This document shows, one piece after another, positions 1 through 25,617 of a stretch of 64,000 nucleotides of DNA. The translations under genes were made by a program, and so were the position numbers. Below the pieces are notes generated by a model. It saw nothing but the letters and a program-made list of their open reading frames with translations, searched no databases and was not told the DNA's origin. Within the stretch, counting starts at the first letter, position 1. Each line of letters begins with the position of its first letter. Origin of the DNA: Granulicella sp. (lineage in GTDB: Bacteria > Acidobacteriota > Terriglobia > Terriglobales > Acidobacteriaceae); the NCBI GenBank assembly GCA_025357875.1, contig JANYLK010000211.1, positions 1 through 64,000 of the forward strand. The letters run 5' to 3'.

Positions 1-2136
1 CTGCACCGTCGACGGCGAGATCGACGACGGGCCCGAAGTGGGATTCGTGACGGTGCCGGATGTGGTGTAGATGGTATTGAATGGCGCGGACTGGTCCAGG
101 CGATAGTCCAGCGTGTCGAGCAGCGCGTGGTGCATGCCGAAGCTGGCGCGGACGACGGTCTTGCCGGTCGAGAAAGGATCGTAAGAGATACCCAGTCGCG
201 GCTCGGGGAGGAACTTGGCGCGATTGGTTGTAAGGGCAGCGGAGCCGGTGGTAGGCGTGGTGTTGATCACTCCATTCGTAAATCCATATACAGGTGCGCG
301 GCCATGCGAAGCGTTCCATCCGTCGGTCGATTCCGAGCGGAGCCCAGCGCGAACTTCGAGGTTGGGCAGGACCTTTATGGTGTCTTCGATATAGCAATCG
401 GCGAAGGTGCTGCGCCAGCCGAGTTCGGTGGTCACGGGGACGTAGGCGAAGTTCTTGATCGTTCCCTGAAGGAAGGTGGCAAGCGAGGCAAAGCTGGCCT
501 GGCCGTATTGATTCTGCGCAAGGTTGTCGTTGGATTCCAGCAATTGAAGCCAACCGCCGGCCTCGATCTGCTGCCTGCCACGCGAGTAGTAGATGTGGTC
601 GTCGAAGGTAAACAGATTGCGCGTAATTCCGTTGTTGGAACCAACGTTGGCTCCTGCAGCGGTGATGAGCGAATTTCCGTTGGAGGCGGTAGAGCCAGCG
701 ATGACGATGGCGCCGGTTGGCTTGCCGGGCAGGAATGTGGGTGTGATGGCCTGGATCGCAGCGGGGACCGAGCCGAGGAAGTAAAAGTTGGCGCGCGATA
801 GGCCAATGCGGCCGGTGTTTAGCAGGCGCGGCGAGAAGACGTGTTGCTCCTGCACGCTTGCCACCTGCTCGCGAAGACTCTCATCGACAAGCGAGAACGG
901 GTTCTGCGTGGGCGTGTTGGCGACGGAATCGTCGATCGTGTAGACAGCGAAGAGCAGGTCATTGGGAGTGAGGTTTGCGTCAAAGCGTGCTGTGCCAAAG
1001 TCTTCGCGGATGTGCTGTGTGGGACTTGAGAATGCTTCGGCGAGCCCACCCCCGAGTTCCGGACCGTTCTGCACAGGCCACAGGTTCAGCAGTGGCCGAA
1101 CCGAGGCGACGGCAGCTGCACGCGAGGCGTTATCCGGGACGATAGTTACGTCGGAGATACCCAGATTTTGGCGGTAGCCTTCGTAGTTGGCGAAGAGGAA
1201 GAGCTTGTCTTTCTTGATGGGGCCGCCGACCGCCGCACCAAAGTTGTTACGCTGGAACCCCGGGATACGTGCAGGGTCAAAGTAATTGCGCGCGTCGAAG
1301 TACGAGTTGCGCACGAACTCGTACACGGAGCCATGAAGATTGTTGGTCCCGGAGGCGGTCACGATGGATACTTGCGCGCCCTGGCGCTTGCCGTAGGCGG
1401 CGGAGTAGGTATCCGTGATGACGTTAAATTCCCGGACAGCTTCGACGCCCAGGAGTTGGCCGGATGTTCCCCCCGGCGTAACGTTGATCAGCGATGCGCC
1501 CGTGTACTCGACGCCGTTGAGCAGGTAGAGATTGTCCTGAGGGCGGCGTCCAGAGACAGCGAACATGTTGCCAACCGACGAGTTCGATGTGCCTACCGAG
1601 CCGCTACGCTGTGCAGTGTAGTTGACGGTCGCAGGATTCAGCGTGATGAGCTGATCGTAACTGCGACCGTTCAGCGGAAGTTCTTTGACCTGGCGCGAGT
1701 CGACGAGGCCAGCCGTCTGCTGCGTGGTGAGATTGACCACGGGCGGGTCATCTTTCACGTTGACTGTCTCAGCTACTCCTGCGAGCGGGAGACTGAGGTT
1801 GACGTTCTGCGACTGCGCTATGGAGAGCGAAATTCCGGTGCGAGTCTGGTCACTGAAGCCATCGACTTTGACGGTCACGGTGTAGGTGCCAACGGGGACT
1901 GATGGCGCAGCGTAGCGTCCGTCGGCCCCACTGAGTAGACGACGCTCGTTGCCAGTCTCGTCGTTGTGGACAAGGACGTGAGCGTTGGCGATAACTGCGC
2001 CCGAGGAGTCGGAGATGGTGCCGGAGATAGTGCCGCCGACGACCTGGGCGTAAGCAATGAGGGCAGGGAAAAGCGCGAACAGGCCAACAATGACACTGGC
2101 GAAGGTGGACAAGGGCGTGCGAGTGCGGCGGATCAT
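1..2136 (-). CDS. TonB-dependent receptor, Oar-like, with carboxypeptidase-regulatory N-terminal domain (3' end beyond window)
   Basis: About 712 codons are visible and the frame is open to the left edge, so the C-terminal part of the barrel is missing. The start at 2136 is preceded by AGGAGA. A hydrophobic signal sequence ends near YAQ (about residue 30). It is followed by an Ig-like carboxypeptidase-regulatory fold (GGTISGTISDSSGAVI, then DGRYAAPSVPVGTYTVTV) and a plug domain (ELPLNGRSYDQL, GRRPQDNLYLLNGVEYTG, EAVREFNVITDTYSAAYGK). The rest looks like beta-barrel. This architecture is characteristic of the large Oar/TonB receptor family expanded in Acidobacteriota, usually linked to outer-membrane uptake of oligosaccharides or other large ligands. 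The substrate cannot be told from this sequence. Confidence 0.9.
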   Translation of the reverse strand, partial: MIRRTRTPLSTFASVIVGLFALFPALIAYAQVVGGTISGTISDSSGAVIANAHVLVHNDETGNERRLLSGADGRYAAPSVPVGTYTVTVKVDGFSDQTRTGISLSIAQSQNVNLSLPLAGVAETVNVKDDPPVVNLTTQQTAGLVDSRQVKELPLNGRSYDQLITLNPATVNYTAQRSGSVGTSNSSVGNMFAVSGRRPQDNLYLLNGVEYTGASLINVTPGGTSGQLLGVEAVREFNVITDTYSAAYGKRQGAQVSIVTASGTNNLHGSVYEFVRNSYFDARNYFDPARIPGFQRNNFGAAVGGPIKKDKLFLFANYEGYRQNLGISDVTIVPDNASRAAAVASVRPLLNLWPVQNGPELGGGLAEAFSSPTQHIREDFGTARFDANLTPNDLLFAVYTIDDSVANTPTQNPFSLVDESLREQVASVQEQHVFSPRLLNTGRIGLSRANFYFLGSVPAAIQAITPTFLPGKPTGAIVIAGSTASNGNSLITAAGANVGSNNGITRNLFTFDDHIYYSRGRQQIEAGGWLQLLESNDNLAQNQYGQASFASLATFLQGTIKNFAYVPVTTELGWRSTFADCYIEDTIKVLPNLEVRAGLRSESTDGWNASHGRAPVYGFTNGVINTTPTTGSAALTTNRAKFLPEPRLGISYDPFSTGKTVVRASFGMHHALLDTLDYRLDQSAPFNTIYTTSGTVTNPTSGPSSISPSTVQ

Positions 2137-2266: not shown

Positions 2267-3397
2267 TCATCGCGAGACTCCGTGGTTGTAGCTCCAGAAG
2301 ACGAGCCCAAGCGTAATCAACGCGATAAATATCTCGCCGAGCACGCCAACGACCAGCGGCCGCCAACCCTGGCCTACGAGGTCTTTCAAATTCGTGCGTA
2401 GACCCACGCCCGCGAATGCGGGAAGGAACGCCCAGCGCGACAGGTTCGAGATGCTGTCTAGCTGTCCACGGCTAAAGAAGCCAGCGGTTGCGAAGACCGA
2501 GATGGCAAGGAAACCGAGGATGAACTTGGGAAACTTCTGCCAAAGAAAGAGCGCCTTGTTCTCCACAACCGCGGCCTTGCCCTGCGACGCCCAATAAATT
2601 GCATAGCCCAGCACCACAAATCCGATGAAAGACGACCGTGCCGTCTTGGCGAGGATGGCCCATCGGCCCGCGTCCTGTCCGTAGAGTGAGCCGGTAACAA
2701 CCGACTCGGCAGTATTGTCGACTGCCAGCCCGGCCCACATCCCATAAGCCTGCTGGCTCAAATGAAGCAGATGCCCGATCGCCGGGAAGGTGAACAGAGC
2801 AATCGCACCTAGTGTGAGGATGGCGGCGATGGCGGTGGAGGTATCCTCTTCGTCGGGATCAATGGCCCCCTGCGCGGCCATGATTGCAGTGACACCGCAA
2901 ATGGAGGACCCGATGGCAAGCAAACTGGTAAGTTTGGGCGGCAACTTGAAGATGCGTCCCAGCAACGTCATCACCGACAGCGAAAGGATAAGCTCAACCG
3001 CGACCAGCCCCAGCGAGAGTCCGCCAATGTGCAGAACATCCTGAAGCAGAAAACGCGCACCAACCAAAACGATCCCAAGCTTGAGCCATAGTTCATAAGT
3101 GGCGATGCCGGGGCGGAAGATTCGCGCCACGCCTACTGAGTTCGAGACAACGAGGCCGAGGATTATGGCCCATAAAACATACTCGATCTGCGGCAGACGC
3201 AGATGATGCTGGGTACGGAGGATGCTGAACGCGTGTTCTAGCAACTTGCCGAGCAGTCCAATTCCGAAGAGGAGTGCGATGCCAGGAAGTGTGCCGATCA
3301 AGCTCGCCGGTTCCAGGGGACCGGTGGCGTCCCCGGGCGAAGTAGTGCTTGGCGGGGTGTCGGTGGCGGCAGGCATCGGGATGGTTTGGGTGGACAT
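2267..3397 (-). CDS. yeiH: YeiH/UPF0324 family membrane transporter (putative sulfate/sulfite exporter)
   Basis: A 376-residue polytopic inner-membrane protein with about ten hydrophobic helices. Family-typical stretches include FRPGIATYELWLKLGIVLVGARF, GSSICGVTAIMAAQGAI and AVDNTAESVVTGSLYG, and the length is normal. Members of this family (E. coli YeiH, COG2855) are annotated as putative sulfate exporters, and work in enterobacteria ties yeiH to sulfite stress; the substrate is not proven. It lies 48 bp downstream of a 47-residue membrane peptide and behind a cysteine-rich leader plus terminator, so expression is probably set by attenuation (see the leader entry). The ribosome site at this start is weak, which suggests translational coupling to the small upstream gene. 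Confidence 0.85.
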   Translation of the reverse strand: MSTQTIPMPAATDTPPSTTSPGDATGPLEPASLIGTLPGIALLFGIGLLGKLLEHAFSILRTQHHLRLPQIEYVLWAIILGLVVSNSVGVARIFRPGIATYELWLKLGIVLVGARFLLQDVLHIGGLSLGLVAVELILSLSVMTLLGRIFKLPPKLTSLLAIGSSICGVTAIMAAQGAIDPDEEDTSTAIAAILTLGAIALFTFPAIGHLLHLSQQAYGMWAGLAVDNTAESVVTGSLYGQDAGRWAILAKTARSSFIGFVVLGYAIYWASQGKAAVVENKALFLWQKFPKFILGFLAISVFATAGFFSRGQLDSISNLSRWAFLPAFAGVGLRTNLKDLVGQGWRPLVVGVLGEIFIALITLGLVFWSYNHGVSR

Positions 3398-3445: not shown

Positions 3446-3589
3446 TTAAAAACTGATCTGGTGAATGACGCCAAAACGTATGAGCGCGGCGAGCGTAAGG
3501 CCGAGCGCGATCGCGACCAGGTCCACATTGATGGGAAGCCTGAGACCGGAGTGCGACTGTGTCGTGCGATTGCTGTTCGTGGTTGCCAT
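3446..3589 (-). CDS. 47-residue single-pass membrane peptide upstream of yeiH
   Basis: Short gene with a strong ribosome site (AAGGAG, 5 nt before ATG at 3589) and a TAA at 3446. It encodes 47 residues: a polar N-terminus rich in Thr/Ser/Asn/His, then one membrane helix (about residues 22-42, NVDLVAIALGLTLAALIRFG) and a short tail ending HQISF. It sits between the attenuator hairpin and yeiH on the same strand with 48 bp to yeiH, so it is probably co-transcribed. I do not recognise a family. A small subunit or stabiliser of the YeiH transporter is a reasonable guess from position and size, but only that. Confidence 0.65.
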   Translation of the reverse strand: MATTNSNRTTQSHSGLRLPINVDLVAIALGLTLAALIRFGVIHQISF

Positions 3590-3644
3590 AAAGCTCCTTG
3601 GTGAGTGCCTTGCTTGATTTGTTTTCGGCTGGGAACGTGAAAAA

Positions 3645-3678
3645 GCCCACGTATAGCGCTTAGCGCTGATACGTGGGC
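3645..3678 (-). terminator. Intrinsic terminator / attenuator hairpin before the yeiH operon
   Basis: The arms 3645-3659 and 3663-3678 are complementary over 15 pairs with one bulged base (3668) and a 3-nt loop. In the minus-strand transcript the stem is followed immediately by five U residues (3644-3640). It lies after the Cys-rich leader peptide and before the first structural gene, which is where an attenuator belongs. The 5' arm (3672-3663) can instead pair with leader nucleotides 3738-3729 over 10 contiguous pairs, including two G-U pairs, giving a mutually exclusive antiterminator. Confidence 0.75.
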
Positions 3679-3715
3679 TCCAAATATTCTAAGGCTTATG
3701 TGCTTCTAAATTCGC

Positions 3716-3808
3716 CTAGGAGGAGGATGCACCAGCGCAGCAGCGGCTCTTGCCCATACAACAGAGGCAACAGCTACACATACACGCGGTGATGCACCTC
3801 AAACTCAT
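3716..3808 (-). CDS. Cysteine-rich leader peptide (30 aa) of a ribosome-mediated attenuator
   Basis: Thirty codons from ATG 3808 to TAG 3716. Nine of the 30 residues are cysteine, clustered as CMCSCCLCC (residues 9-17) and CC (23-24). A sigma-70 promoter (3816-3844) places transcription start within about one base of the ATG and no Shine-Dalgarno is present, so the message is probably leaderless. About 38 nt after the stop comes an intrinsic terminator, then the membrane peptide and yeiH. Mycobacterial sulfur operons are known to use leaderless Cys-rich leader peptides for cysteine-responsive attenuation; the layout here is the same. Inference: scarce Cys-tRNA stalls ribosomes at the Cys cluster and lets the yeiH operon be transcribed. 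Confidence 0.7.
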   Translation of the reverse strand: MSLRCITACMCSCCLCCMGKSRCCAGASSS

Positions 3809-3815
3809 AAACCAG

Positions 3816-3844
3816 AAGCTACCTGTTTCTGCGAGGCACGTCAA
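3816..3844 (-). promoter_or_regulatory. Sigma-70 promoter of the Cys leader / yeiH operon
   Basis: On the minus strand TTGACG (3844-3839), a 17-nt spacer, then TAGCTT (3821-3816). Seven nucleotides separate the -10 box from the ATG of the Cys-rich leader, predicting transcription start at or next to the A of that codon. Confidence 0.6.
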
Positions 3845-3867: not shown

Positions 3868-3981
3868 CTTAAAGAGGAAACCCACGCAGCGCGGTGGGGG
3901 CTGTTGCGTGGGTATTCCGGTAAAGCAACGAAGTGGGTGGACTTCGCTGTGACTAACTCAACCCGAAGGGAGTCTTGCCAC
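3868..3981 (-). ncRNA. Candidate structured small RNA with its own promoter and terminator
   Basis: Between pckG and the Cys leader. A promoter at 3988-4016 would start a transcript near 3981. The transcript can fold a GGGAGT/ACTCCC hairpin overlapping a CC-UUCG-GG tetraloop helix with ACUC/GAGU arms, a CGAAGU/ACUUCG hairpin, and a final 9-bp stem (3905-3913 with 3880-3888) followed by a weak U-rich run. A GUUGC/GCAAC pairing (3925-3929 with 3903-3907) competes with the last stem, which resembles a terminator/antiterminator pair. No reading frame is convincing and I could not match it to a known riboswitch. The final stem could alternatively be just the pckG terminator. Confidence 0.4.
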
Positions 3982-3987
3982 TCCCAT

Positions 3988-4016
3988 AGAGTAGAGCGGA
4001 ATGGGCATTGCGTCAA
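3988..4016 (-). promoter_or_regulatory. Sigma-70 promoter upstream of the candidate small RNA
   Basis: Minus strand TTGACG (4016-4011), 17-nt spacer, TACTCT (3993-3988). It lies in the pckG 3' region and points toward the structured element and the yeiH operon. Confidence 0.5.
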
Positions 4017-14560: not shown

Positions 14561-17500
14561 ATGGCTCCATTCCTCGAATGGGGCTTTTGGATGGGGAGTT
14601 TTCGGCATTCGCAGAAACTGAGCCACTGGCTGAGGCCGTGTGCAGCGGCGGCGTTGCTGGCCGCGTATACGTTGCCGGGCATAGACCAGGCGTGGGGTGC
14701 GCAGGCTACGCTGATCGCGGACGCGCACGTAAACAGCGCAATGCCCACAGTCAACAGCGGATCAATCTCCAATCTGAATGTAGGTGGCGGATATACGACG
14801 CTGATGCAATTTGACCTGTCGATGCTGCCGGCGGGTACGACCGCATCGCAAGTATCGCGTTCCGTGCTGCGGGTCTACGTCAATCGCGTGACGACGCCCG
14901 GACTGGTCGCGGTTGCCCCAATAACCGCCTCCTGGGGCGAGTACAGCACAAACTATGCAACTCTACCCTCCCGCGGAACAGCCGCCGGACTCATATCCGT
15001 CAGCCAGGCTGGCGCGTTCCTTGCCTTCGATGTGACCTCCCTGGTGCAGGGTTGGATCAGCAACCCGGCGACAAATAACGGCCTCGCGTTCTCGGCTGGA
15101 ACCGCAGTGGTGCAATTCGACAGCAAGGAGAATGACGAGACCGCGCACCCAGCTACGCTTGACGTGGAACTGGTGAACGCAGGGCCAGTGGGAACAACCG
15201 GAGCACCCGGGCCGCGCGGGCTGACGGGAACAAGTGGCGCCATGGGAGTAGGCGGACCAATCGGCCCGACCGGACCTCCGGGATTGACTGGCCCAGCCGG
15301 CCCAACAGGTCCAGCGGGCTCAGGCATCGGCGGCGGGTTGAACTACGCGGGCACCTACGCCTCAACCAGCAATTACGCCACGGGAGACACCGTGGTATAT
15401 CAGGGCTCTAGCTACATCTCCCTTATCGCCGCGAATCACGGCAACACACCCGGCCTGAATCCTGCTTACTGGGGACTGCTGGCCGCGGCGGGTGTAGGCA
15501 CGAACGGAACGGTCGGTCCATCCGGTGCGATGGGACCGCAAGGTCTCACCGGCGCAACCGGTGGGGCTGGGCTTGCCGGAATCGCCGGTACGACTGGAGC
15601 ACAGGGAGCCGCCGGACTTGTCTATCAGGGCGTCTACAACTCGATCCAGAATTACGCGCTGGGGGACACGGTGCTGTGGCAGGGCACGACCTACACTTCC
15701 CTCATCGCCTCCAACCATGGCAATACCCCTAGCCTCAGCCCGCAGCAGTGGGGAGTATTGTCCGCGCAGGGACCTGCGGGTCCCGCAGGCACCACCGGTG
15801 CTACGGGAACGCCCGGACCACAGGGATTGCCGGGAGGCGTCGGGCCAAACGGCCCAATCGGTCCTCAGGGTTATCAAGGTATCTCCGGCCAGGCCGGAGC
15901 GCAGGGAATACCTGGCACAACCGGCGCAACCGGGCTGTCCGGTCCAGAAGGTTCGCAAGGAATTGCAGGGCCGGTGGGGCTGTCGTTCCAGGGGATCTAC
16001 ACATCGACCTCCAACTATGCGCTGGCGGATGGCGTCTCGTACATGGGCGCCGGTTACGTCTCACTCACCGCGAGCAATCATGGCAACACCCCCGATCAGA
16101 GCCCAATGCAGTGGTCGCTCTTTGCTGCTTCCGGGACGTCTGGATCGATCGGCCCTCCCGGGGTCGCCGGACCCACCGGGTTCACGGGCCCTATCGGTCC
16201 GCAGGGACTCTCCGGGCCAACCGGCACGTCCGGTGCAACCGGGCAACAAGGACCTCCGGTGGCGAACTATCTCGGCAACTACCAGTCGCTGGTGAACTAC
16301 GATCGCAATGACGCCGTAAGTTGGCAAGGTTCGACGTATATCTCGATGATCGCCGGCAACGTCGGCAACAACCCATCGCTGAATCCGGCGCAATGGGGTG
16401 TCCTGGTGGCGCAGGGTCCCGCAGGATTGACCGGGACGGCAGGCCCGATCGGTGCCGCCGGACTGACCGGCGCGACAGGCACCACCGGATCTCCCGGCCC
16501 GCAAGGTCCGCCCGTAACCTTTCAGTCGGGATGGCTGATCGCCACTTCCTACGCTGTCGGCGATGTGGTTGCCTACGCGGGCTCCAGCTACATCGCGCTC
16601 TCCGCAAACGCAGGTCGCGAGCCAGACGTCAGTCCGCAATACTGGGGCGTGCTTGCCGCAGCAGGATTAACTGGACCAGTCGGCGCAACTGGAGCGACCG
16701 GAACGGAAGGCCCAACCGGCTATGCAGGTCTACCGGGCCCAACCGGCGCGCAGGGTCCGAACGGCCCCCAAGGTTCGACAGGCCCACTGGGAGTTACCGG
16801 CGCAACCGGGCCGGTAGGACCCACAGGAACAACTGGAGCCACAGGACTCGCGGGCATCATCTATCAAGGGACCTATGCTTCGACTGCTACCTACGGACTA
16901 AATGACGCAGTGTCCTATCTGGGTTCAACCTACATTTCCATCGCGAGCTCCAACGCCGGCAACACCCCCGGTCAGAGTCCAACCTTCTGGGCCGTTCTTG
17001 CATTGCAAGGCTCAGCAGGAACTTCAGGTGCGATCGGAGCCACCGGGCCGCAGGGCTCAAACGGATCGCCCGGAATTGCTGGAGCAGCCGGCTCGCCCGG
17101 AACATCCGGGCCCACCGGACCGGTCGGGATGATTTTCCACGGTGCATGGAACGCAGGAGTGGGCTACGTCATCAATGATTCTGTCGCCTACGATGGCGCC
17201 ACGTATATTGCCCAATTGAACAACAATTCATCGCGACCAGACCTTAATGCACAAGTGTGGATGTTGCTTGCAAGTGCAGGCAGCGTAGGCCCTTCGGGTC
17301 CAGCAGGCGCATCGGGAATTGCGGCCACGTTGACTATTGGTACGGTCACCACCGGAGCTGCCGGCGCATCAGCGGCGGTGACCAACACTGGATCAAACTC
17401 GGCAGCCGTACTCAACTTCACCATCCCACAGGGCGCTACCGGACCCGCCGGATCAGGAAGCGGCGGTGGTAGCTCACTATCGCTCCTGTCGATATATCAC

Positions 17501-17830
17501 GCGGTATCTTTCAACAGCTTTTTCTACTCCGTCAACAGCCCAACATCAGCCCTGATGGAACAAGGGAAAATCCTCACCTGGGTGCCGTTGGGATGCACCG
17601 CTACGACGTTGAACGTCTTGTCGCAACAGGCCAACCCAATTACGGTTACGCTGCGTACGGGCTCTTCGGGAAGTCTGACCAATACAACGCTCGCCTGTAC
17701 TGCTGCGCCAGGAACGTCTTGTACTGCGACTGGCAGCGTGACCATCTCCGCTGGCTCCTTCGTCGATCTCGGTATCAGCGGAGCCGACGGGACGTCAGCA
17801 AGCGTTTGGACTGTGCTCGCGTGCAACTAA
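14561..17830 (+). CDS. Large exported collagen-like protein with DNRLRE-type domain and seven repeated carbohydrate-binding-like modules
   Basis: 1089 residues; AAGGGCAGG lies just before the ATG. Signal sequence to about residue 46, then a DNRLRE-type adhesin domain (about 47-207: [38 protein letters not shown]). Seven modules of about 52 residues follow, starting near 259, 352, 472, 566, 651, 765 and 857. Their shared pattern is (Y/F)xGxYxSxxxYxxxDxVxYxGSxYxSxxxxNxGNxPxxxPxxWxxL, resembling ChiA/CBM5-12-type chitin-binding folds. They are separated by Gly-X-Y collagen segments ([19 protein letters not shown] and similar). The C-terminal ~110 residues are Cys-containing and unrepeated. Likely a filamentous surface or secreted adhesin; ligand unknown. 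Confidence 0.85.
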
Positions 17831-24485: not shown

Positions 24486-25617
24486 CTAATCCACATCTTC
24501 GCCATCAATCGGAGCCGGCAAATTGCCCTCCCGCCGCATCCTCAAATAGCCACGAATAAATGGCTCCAGATCGCCGTCGAGCACCTTGTCCACATCGCCG
24601 ACTTCCACCCGCGTCCGCAGGTCCTTCGCCATCCGATAAGGCTGCAACACATAGCTCCGAATCTGCGACCCAAAACCAATCTCCAGCTTCGAATCCTCAA
24701 TCTTTCGAGTAGCCGCCTTCTTTTTATCCAACTCGTACTCGTACAATTTCGACCGCATCATCTTCATCGCACGATCTTTATTTTTATGCTGCGAGCGTTC
24801 GTTCTGGCAGCCCGTCACCAGCCCCGTAGGAAGATGTGTAATCCGCACCGCCGAATCGGTCGTATTCACATGCTGCCCACCCTTGCCGCCCGATCGATAC
24901 GTATCGATCCGCAGGTCTTCCACCTTGATGTCGATCACAATCGTGTCGTCAATCTCCGGACTCACAAACACGCTCGCAAAACTCGTATGCCGTCGCTTCG
25001 CCTGGTCGAATGGCGAGATTCGCACCAGACGATGCACGCCAGACTCGCCGTGAATCAGCCCATACGCGAAGTCGCCTGTAATCGTAAACGTGGCCGACTT
25101 GATCCCCGCCTCGTCGCCATCCTGAATCTCGTTGATCTCCGTCTTGAACCCCTGCCGCTCGGCCCAGCGCAGATACATCCGCATCAGCATCTCGGCCCAG
25201 TCCTGGCTCTCCGTCCCGCCGGCGCCAGGATGCACGGTCATGATCGCGTTCAACCCGTCGGTATCGCCCGACAGCATCGTCTTCGATTCCAGCTTCTCCG
25301 AAAACTCCACCAGCGCCGGAATCTCACGCTCCAGCTCTGGCTCAACCGCCTCGCCTTCCTTGGCCAGCTCGAAGTAAGCCGCAATGTCATCTTGCCGGCG
25401 CGCCAACTCCGCATCGTCCGCCAGCAGCGTCTCCAGACGCTTCCGCTCGCGCATCAAAGGTTGCGACCGAGCCCCATCCGCCCACACCGCCGGATCGCCA
25501 ATCTTCTCTTCAATCACCGCCAGCTCGCGCTTCAGCCGAGCCGAGTCAAAGATACTCCCGCAGCTCGCGAACCCGCTCGCGCACCGGGGAGTATCGATAT
25601 TCCAGATCATCAATCAT
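24486..25617 (-). CDS. prfB: Peptide chain release factor 2, with programmed +1 frameshift
   Basis: RF2 releases peptides at UGA/UAA. Translation starts at ATG 25617, reads 23 codons (MIDDLEYRYSP... REYL), meets an in-frame TGA at 25548-25546, and must shift +1 within CTT TGA C to continue at 25547 to the stop at 24486 (376 residues in total). A Shine-Dalgarno-like CGGGAG lies just before the slippery CUU, as in E. coli prfB, where low RF2 stalls at the UGA and promotes shifting. The body carries SPF (anticodon-mimic tripeptide, RISPFDQAKRR) and GGQ (RSGGKGGQHVN). The gene is intact as an autoregulated frameshift gene and is not a pseudogene. Confidence 0.95.

Follow-up and report, generated by a model that had tools for sequence, protein, structure and literature searches.

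A predicted cysteine-responsive attenuator before a YeiH-type transporter gene and related cysteine leaders at sulfur genes of Acidobacteriota

A YeiH-type transporter gene of Granulicella sp. is very probably under ribosome-mediated transcription attenuation that senses charged tRNA-Cys, and switched on in cysteine starvation. The gene lies in a window of 64,000 nucleotides (contig JANYLK010000211.1), which is the whole stretch of DNA that was analysed, and the leader ORF, its codon bias, the terminator, their conservation and the gene neighbourhood can be read from the letters themselves. A sequence-only reading of this DNA had suggested cysteine-sensing attenuation in Acidobacteriota, and this suggestion is supported by the recurrence of the Cys ORF, the promoter spacing, the terminator and the antiterminator before yeiH orthologues. 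The features of the locus, with their positions in the window, are as follows:

5965-4085, upstream of the leader: PEPCK gene
3816-3844, minus strand: predicted promoter; most relatives also have TTGAC and a -10 located approximately 6-8 nt ahead of the ATG
3716-3808, minus strand: Cys-rich leader ORF MSLRCITACMCSCCLCCMGKSRCCAGASSS, predicted to be leaderless; such an ORF is found at 28/29 orthologous loci
3758-3784, minus strand: presumed sensor, the first Cys cluster (codons 9-17), UGU-rich across relatives
3720-3806, minus strand: hairpin spanning the ORF (regions 1:2) in whole-leader folds, which might protect the 5' strand of the antiterminator
3725-3744, minus strand: 5' strand of the antiterminator (region 2), predicted by folding, which overlaps with the second Cys cluster
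3689-3719, minus strand: stem P2, enclosing the stop codon and forming the apical part of the antiterminator, predicted by locus-by-locus folding
3665-3681, minus strand: 3' strand of the antiterminator, predicted by folding, which overlaps with the 5' arm of the terminator (region 3)
3640-3679, minus strand: intrinsic terminator (regions 3:4) with U-run, predicted by folding and recurring in relatives
3446-3589, minus strand: 47-aa mini-protein, hydrophobic by eye, ending in ...AALIRFGVIHQISF
2267-3397, minus strand: YeiH-like transporter, by profile match to PF03601
2220-2270, minus strand: second Cys mini-ORF MTPIFIMLAAPRCCRP, the ATG of which overlaps the yeiH stop codon (ATGA)
1-2136, minus strand: gene for a TonB-type outer-membrane receptor (OMP_b-brl_4, CarboxypepD_reg) that continues beyond the start of the window and contig

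The leader ORF extends from the ATG at 3808 to the TAG at 3718-3716 and contains nine Cys codons in a total of 30, the last of which is codon 24. The ORF described in the sequence-only reading was confirmed on the minus strand, as was the lack of a Shine-Dalgarno-like motif before its ATG. Such a motif was found before 1/28 leaders of yeiH group 1, 0/18 of yeiH group 2, 1/28 of sulfite reductase and 4/26 of cysD genes. The sigma-70 promoter that had been described is present as well, with a -35 sequence TTGACG at 3844-3839 (5/6 consensus) and a 17-nt spacer that recurs before yeiH orthologues; its -10 sequence, TAGCTT at 3821-3816, matches the consensus at only 3/6 positions, and this weak -10 is a point against the attenuator explanation. 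The distance between the -10 and the ATG is 7 nt, and from the position of the promoter we infer that transcription starts at or beside the ATG. A generic promoter and terminator scan listed neither the leader promoter nor the leader terminator, and gives no support.

When 150 related genomes were searched with the protein, YeiH matches were obtained in 96 of them. The best loci (L001-L027, with 74-100% identity and the window's own locus included) contained a leader in 26 of the 27 cases, with no leader at L002, and the addition of two further loci (L031 and L032) resulted in a set of 29 orthologous yeiH loci. Using a uniform rule for a Cys-rich ORF (ATG start, 10-45 codons, at least 3 Cys, a CC pair and at least 10% Cys), 28 of these loci scored positive, compared to a mean of 0.9 in shuffled sequences and 3 on the opposite strand, and the same rule found 3/20 in the regions of distant YeiH-like genes and 0/27 downstream of yeiH. 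The leaders of this group, yeiH group 1, are all followed by a terminator (28/28), and the median distance between their last Cys codon and the stop is 6 codons. The expectation that yeiH homologues share a Cys-rich upstream ORF is borne out. In a set of named genomes (the best 80 of 211 relatives, with GTG starts allowed and approximately 700 bases upstream considered), a Cys ORF was present at 53 of the 80 loci: 29/30 with at least 70% identity and 24/50 below this value, where some matches may be due to chance. Among the leader-bearing species are Edaphobacter aggregans, E. modestus, Granulicella mallensis, Terriglobus albidus and Bryocella elongata. The counts are not independent events, since the loci are related to each other and the two locus sets have some genomes in common. 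The Cys leader at yeiH is real and exceeds what is expected by chance, as is confirmed by these comparisons.

The choice of Cys codons differs between the two clusters of the leader. Of the 137 Cys codons in the first cluster, 115 (84%) are UGU, compared to 17 of the 90 in the second cluster, where part of the sequence has to pair as antiterminator. In the longest ORFs of loci L001-L160, on the other hand, UGU accounts for 60/509 Cys codons (12%), and the yeiH and cysD reading frames contain 6/44 and 17/141, respectively, thus the presumed sensors use a codon that these genes avoid. UGU was found at 50/65 Cys codons in the leaders of yeiH group 2, 102/165 in those of sulfite reductase and 126/170 in those of cysD.

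This codon bias bears on another explanation, namely that the nascent peptide itself is the sensor, and that metal binding or oxidation of its Cys-rich sequence stalls the ribosome, as has been proposed for the copper-responsive uORFs CutF and CruR. The leader peptide is indeed Cys-rich, comparable to the Cys-containing CutF and CruR, and CruR also precedes a gene for a TonB-dependent transporter, according to the available part of PMC9973294. However, according to the same text these uORFs have a motif for metal binding and an end rich in Pro instead of clusters of Cys codons, and both a signal sequence and a Pro-rich end are absent, by eye, from the window's peptide. Moreover, the UGU bias at the presumed sensor codons speaks against a peptide sensor, the Cys codons are common to the leaders of yeiH, sulfite reductase and cysD while there is little resemblance in the rest of their peptides, and the genes under control belong to sulfur assimilation. 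We therefore consider peptide sensing highly unlikely, and codon reading by the ribosome the better explanation.

The terminator at 3679-3644 consists of 16 core pairs with one bulged base, or 18 pairs when the G-U pairs at its base are counted; a terminator with U-run before the structural genes had been described correctly, with the exception of its length, which was given as 15 pairs. When the leader RNA was compared with shuffled sequences, none of the 200 shuffles folded as well (z -5.3). Behind a stalled ribosome, the terminator 5' arm is predicted to pair with GCUG-C-UGCG...GG of the second Cys cluster, with P2 (CUAGGC at 3719-3714 paired with GCCUUAG at 3695-3689) inside. A helix of 10 pairs between 3738-3729 and 3672-3663 had been put forward as antiterminator. 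This helix can form, and behind a stalled ribosome no better fold was obtained for the RNA of the window's own locus, but the register that recurs in relatives is a different one, in which 3744-3725 pairs with 3681-3665 and encloses the covarying P2 at the stop codon.

In the folding calculations, placing the ribosome at the first Cys cluster gave a mean probability of 0.80 for upstream pairing of the arm, and placing it at the stop codon gave 0.19; when the upstream sequence was shuffled, the mean was 0.46. The first position gave the higher value at 28/28 loci, and the observed pairing was reached in 51 of 1120 shuffles, 23 of which came from L023 and L027 (13/40 and 10/40, respectively). 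The idea that stalling at the earlier Cys cluster frees an antiterminator is favoured by these folds in general, although barely at the window's own locus, where the values were almost the same (0.75 for the first cluster versus 0.73 for the stop) and where the structure with the ribosome at the stop is weak (-4.8 versus about -30 kcal/mol). When the stall was placed at the middle Cys, little antiterminator was formed at 5/26 loci. The hairpin over the ORF appeared in whole-leader folds and was not consistent in shortened transcripts, and in ribosome-free transcripts ending before the terminator 3' arm, the 5' arm was paired with a probability of at least 0.5 at 11/26 loci, thus a protector role of this hairpin is not established by the modelling.

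Standard pairs were found in 93.1% of the cells of the alignment for the antiterminator with P2, and in 93.5% for the terminator. P2 showed double changes at 4 of its 6 pairs, in 6 cells, and its inner pair was broken in 10/28 leaders. Cognate antiterminator duplexes were better than shuffled ones (mean z -2.4), but their energy gave no covariation signal when compared to non-cognate duplexes (-18.95 versus -18.85 kcal/mol), because both strands are nearly invariant. Of the covarying terminator and antiterminator pairs that had been anticipated, those of the terminator and P2 were found, and the covariation comes mainly from these two elements, whereas the antiterminator strands show no cognate advantage. 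RNAalifold recovered the terminator and a hairpin in the first Cys cluster from the full alignment, and did not recover P2, which has a loop of variable length. From a set of 14 divergent leaders, with other peptides in which the Cys clusters are kept, 11 were folded, leaving out L193 and L200 (ORF misplaced) and L195 (no terminator found). A GCUG-type pairing to the arm was predicted in 11/11, with a probability of 0.60-0.78 and with CAGC as partner (L192 and L205 have a G-U variant of it), and a stem of different sequence was located near the P2 position. Rfam release 15 (4227 families) gave no match in the window at gathering score, and three matches below this score near the leader (E 3.9-9.7).

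Based on these predictions, the switch might operate as follows. Transcription would begin at or next to the ATG, and the ribosome would enter without a Shine-Dalgarno sequence. With ample Cys-tRNA, the ribosome would reach the stop codon and cover both the antiterminator 5' strand and P2, as a consequence of which the terminator would form and the operon would be off. With Cys-tRNA scarce, the ribosome would stall at the UGU-rich first Cys cluster and open the hairpin over the ORF, which would free GCUGCUGCG...GG to pair with the 5' arm of the terminator and so enclose P2, and the resulting antiterminator would allow read-through into the genes for the mini-protein, YeiH and the receptor. The tRNA-Cys signal and the direction of control are what we infer from this arrangement.

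The direction could be the reverse, in that stalling lowers expression and YeiH is made in cysteine excess to export a sulfur compound, which would agree with the protection against sulfite provided by Salmonella YeiH and the annotation of some orthologues as putative sulfate exporters (available part of PMC12880088). This inverted logic appears very improbable, since the antiterminator is favoured in the stalled state at 28/28 loci by folding, and a TonB-type receptor is encoded in the same operon. In addition, Cys leaders precede sulfite reductase and cysD genes, and these enzymes are required when cysteine is short.

A covariance model built from the 28 leaders was used to search 299 genomes, and gave 29 matches with E below 1e-20, of which 28 were at yeiH and one (L081) was located before the gene of a large TonB-type-receptor-like protein. 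The latter place and those of 19 weaker matches were fetched, and 16 of these 20 places contained a Cys-rich ORF, whereas L094, L096, L097 and L098 did not. The 16 ORFs precede genes for TonB-type receptors (8, by sequence resemblance), nitrite/sulfite reductase (3), cysDN (1) and a yeiH of another genus (1), and what we take, from its motif, to be a sulfatase-like gene (1); of the two others, one is at a contig end and one precedes a gene without assignment. Pfam confirmed one reductase, the CysD and the receptor of the window. On the strand of the gene, a Cys ORF was found at 27/30 sulfite reductase and 24/30 cysD loci, compared to 6/30 and 3/30, respectively, on the opposite strand, and yeiH group 2 carries such an ORF at 18/21 loci, with three missed by the uniform rule. 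The genome of the window also has these leaders: the one of sulfite reductase (L125) has a GTG start and a terminator, and is counted as a miss under the ATG-only rule, and the one of cysD (L133) has no terminator. These distributions suggest that the yeiH leader is one member of a cysteine and sulfur-assimilation regulon of Acidobacteriota.

The leaders of this putative regulon are not built in the same way. A terminator follows 25/28 sulfite reductase leaders and only 5/18 yeiH group 2 and 4/26 cysD leaders, and the last Cys is 0-3 codons away from the stop in group 2 and at a median of 2 codons (range 0-12) in cysD leaders. The sequence after the stop is C-rich and G-poor, with a C/G of 2.05 for group 2 and 1.54 for cysD, which would fit Rho-dependent control, but this is weak evidence because the sulfite reductase leaders, mostly with a terminator, show 1.61. 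This value, together with the 1.57 measured upstream of the yeiH group 1 leaders, rules out a C-rich stretch as mark of terminator-less leaders. Nevertheless, the scarcity of terminators in group 2 and cysD leaders, and the Cys codons close to the stop with C-rich, G-poor sequence thereafter in group 2 and the internal mini-ORF discussed below, could mean that cysteine acts through translation or Rho, in line with what has been proposed for Actinobacteria, and that the terminator is incidental. For the yeiH leader of the window this seems exceedingly improbable, given the terminator in every group 1 leader and the larger distance between their last Cys and the stop, and transcription attenuation is the reading that we retain here.

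The transporter matches PF03601 (YeiH superfamily) with 245.4 bits, well above the gathering score of 24.5, and TIGR00698 (YeiH putative sulfate exporter) with 112.5 bits, which is below the curated cut-off of 232.6. YeiH of Salmonella gives protection against sulfite, and the function of YeiH is presented as unsettled in the available part of PMC12880088. The sequence-only reading had proposed a sulfur-oxyanion transporter and had pointed to a tie of YeiH with sulfate/sulfite export; the link with sulfur is kept, and export is opposed by the regulation and the linked TonB-type receptor. A related receptor is encoded behind yeiH at 24/27 loci (57-73% identity) and at 22/30 of the closest named loci (from the best 80 of 211 relatives), some of which are on short contigs. 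In five genomes with only group-2 yeiH (G003, G017, G018, G036 and G045), a Cys leader of its own precedes the receptor gene, which adjoins cysD. When the receptor with Cys leader of a relative (L086) was compared to the genome of the window, the best match was the gene right behind the window yeiH (67% identity), followed by a fragment with 63% identity that lies at the end of a different contig and may be the missing part of the window receptor, and a next match of 34%. An apparent regulon that also includes cysD and sulfite reductase, together with the presence of a TonB-type receptor in the operon, suggests that this clade of YeiH would serve in uptake of sulfur rather than in export. The mini-protein encoded before yeiH has no Pfam or NCBIfam match, and a counterpart is present at the same place in group-2 yeiH loci (e.g., ...LLVRFGILKVVPW in L040, with the DNA read by eye); it is possibly a small partner of YeiH.

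The gap between yeiH and the receptor gene contains a mini-ORF with a CC pair at 32/38 loci, and at 25 of the 38 it starts at the yeiH stop, in 23 cases by an ATGA or GTGA overlap, compared to 0.6 expected from shuffling. Four loci (L196, L201, L203 and L208) are apparent duplicates of L022, L024, L025 and L021, respectively, with identical peptides, and without them the numbers are 28/34 and 21/34. The Cys codons of these mini-ORFs are 90 UGU and 11 UGC, the last Cys is 0-3 codons away from the stop, and C exceeds G in the sequence thereafter at 20/20 loci measured (C/G 2.14). The mini-ORF looks like a second cysteine checkpoint. A switch based on occlusion of a Shine-Dalgarno sequence was considered for it, and eight loci showed no consistent difference. 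A combined reading, in which the leader attenuator is complemented by a re-initiated poly-Cys mini-ORF that gates the receptor, probably by means of Rho, and in which the YeiH clade is an importer, is plausible, and we put it forward tentatively. If this two-checkpoint arrangement is true, the receptor and YeiH would form an uptake route for a sulfur compound across two membranes, and the stop-overlapping poly-Cys ORF would be an unusual placement of a second amino-acid checkpoint within an operon.

Like the trp/his-type attenuators of Proteobacteria, as these are commonly known, the predicted switch combines clustered regulatory codons with mutually exclusive antiterminator and terminator. 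It differs from them in its Cys codons, the predicted leaderless start, the occurrence in Acidobacteriota and an antiterminator built around an extra stem that holds the stop codon, and also in that a protector hairpin is not established. Polycysteine short ORFs that are leaderless have been reported for mycobacteria (Canestrari et al. 2020, as cited in the available parts of PMC9031893 and PMC13236596), and these and other actinobacterial leaders encode Cys-run peptides before cysteine and sulfur genes, as does the leader of the window. In the actinobacterial leaders, the Cys runs are near the stop, no conserved terminator was found and Rho has been suggested (available parts of PMC1262725 and PMC9031893), whereas terminator and antiterminator recur in acidobacterial yeiH group 1, which places the window switch closer to the trp/his attenuators. 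The likeness to mycobacterial leaders that had been pointed out covers Cys-rich leaders before sulfur genes and the predicted leaderless start, and does not include the position of the Cys runs and the terminator. The actinobacterial layout is approached more closely by the acidobacterial leaders of yeiH group 2, by many of those of cysD and by the internal mini-ORF. The NCBIfam model for the Ms5788A-type Cys leader (NF042933) does not match the peptide of the window, and a composite of the relatives' peptides scores 12.7 bits, below the cut-off of 45. The uORFC-8-2 motif upstream of cysS in Rhodobacterales has a predicted Cys-codon uORF with an intrinsic terminator; it differs in its two UGC-dominated Cys codons, its gene and its phylum, and the available part of PMC8632094 mentions no regulon.

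A search of freely licensed papers gave no cysteine leader peptide or attenuator for Acidobacteriota. The kind of attenuation is already known, and the phylum, the complete switch, the regulon and the internal Cys ORF were not found in this literature. In a survey from 2010, attenuators were predicted in phyla such as Acidobacteria, almost all without an associated function (available part of PMC2965389). The leaders described here would provide Acidobacteriota with a regulon that responds to cysteine and for which the predicted switch is nearly complete, and add a regulatory argument to the discussion on the role of YeiH-like proteins.

Several other observations were made along the way. At L045 (G136), 639 bases before the end of the locus, another leader design (MIHRACTCCYDGCCRACCRNSMPVCRCVSK) with a strong terminator precedes a group-2-like yeiH. 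Between the PEPCK gene and the leader of the window lies a stretch on the minus strand (3880-4000, GCGAAGTCCACCCACTTCGTTG...CCCACGCAACAGCCCCCACCGCGCTGCGTGGG) that has no Rfam match at gathering score. A 34-nt match to its end is present in 48/62 genomes of the same genus, often away from yeiH, and similar stretches occur in L094, L096 and L098; an unrecorded small RNA may have its 3' end here. On the plus strand, an ORF of 1089 aa at 14561-17830 contains, by eye, long collagen-like Gly-X-Y repeats. Finally, a minus-strand ORF at 24486-25613 resembles peptide chain release factor 2, and its start looks out of frame, which is possibly a programmed frameshift.
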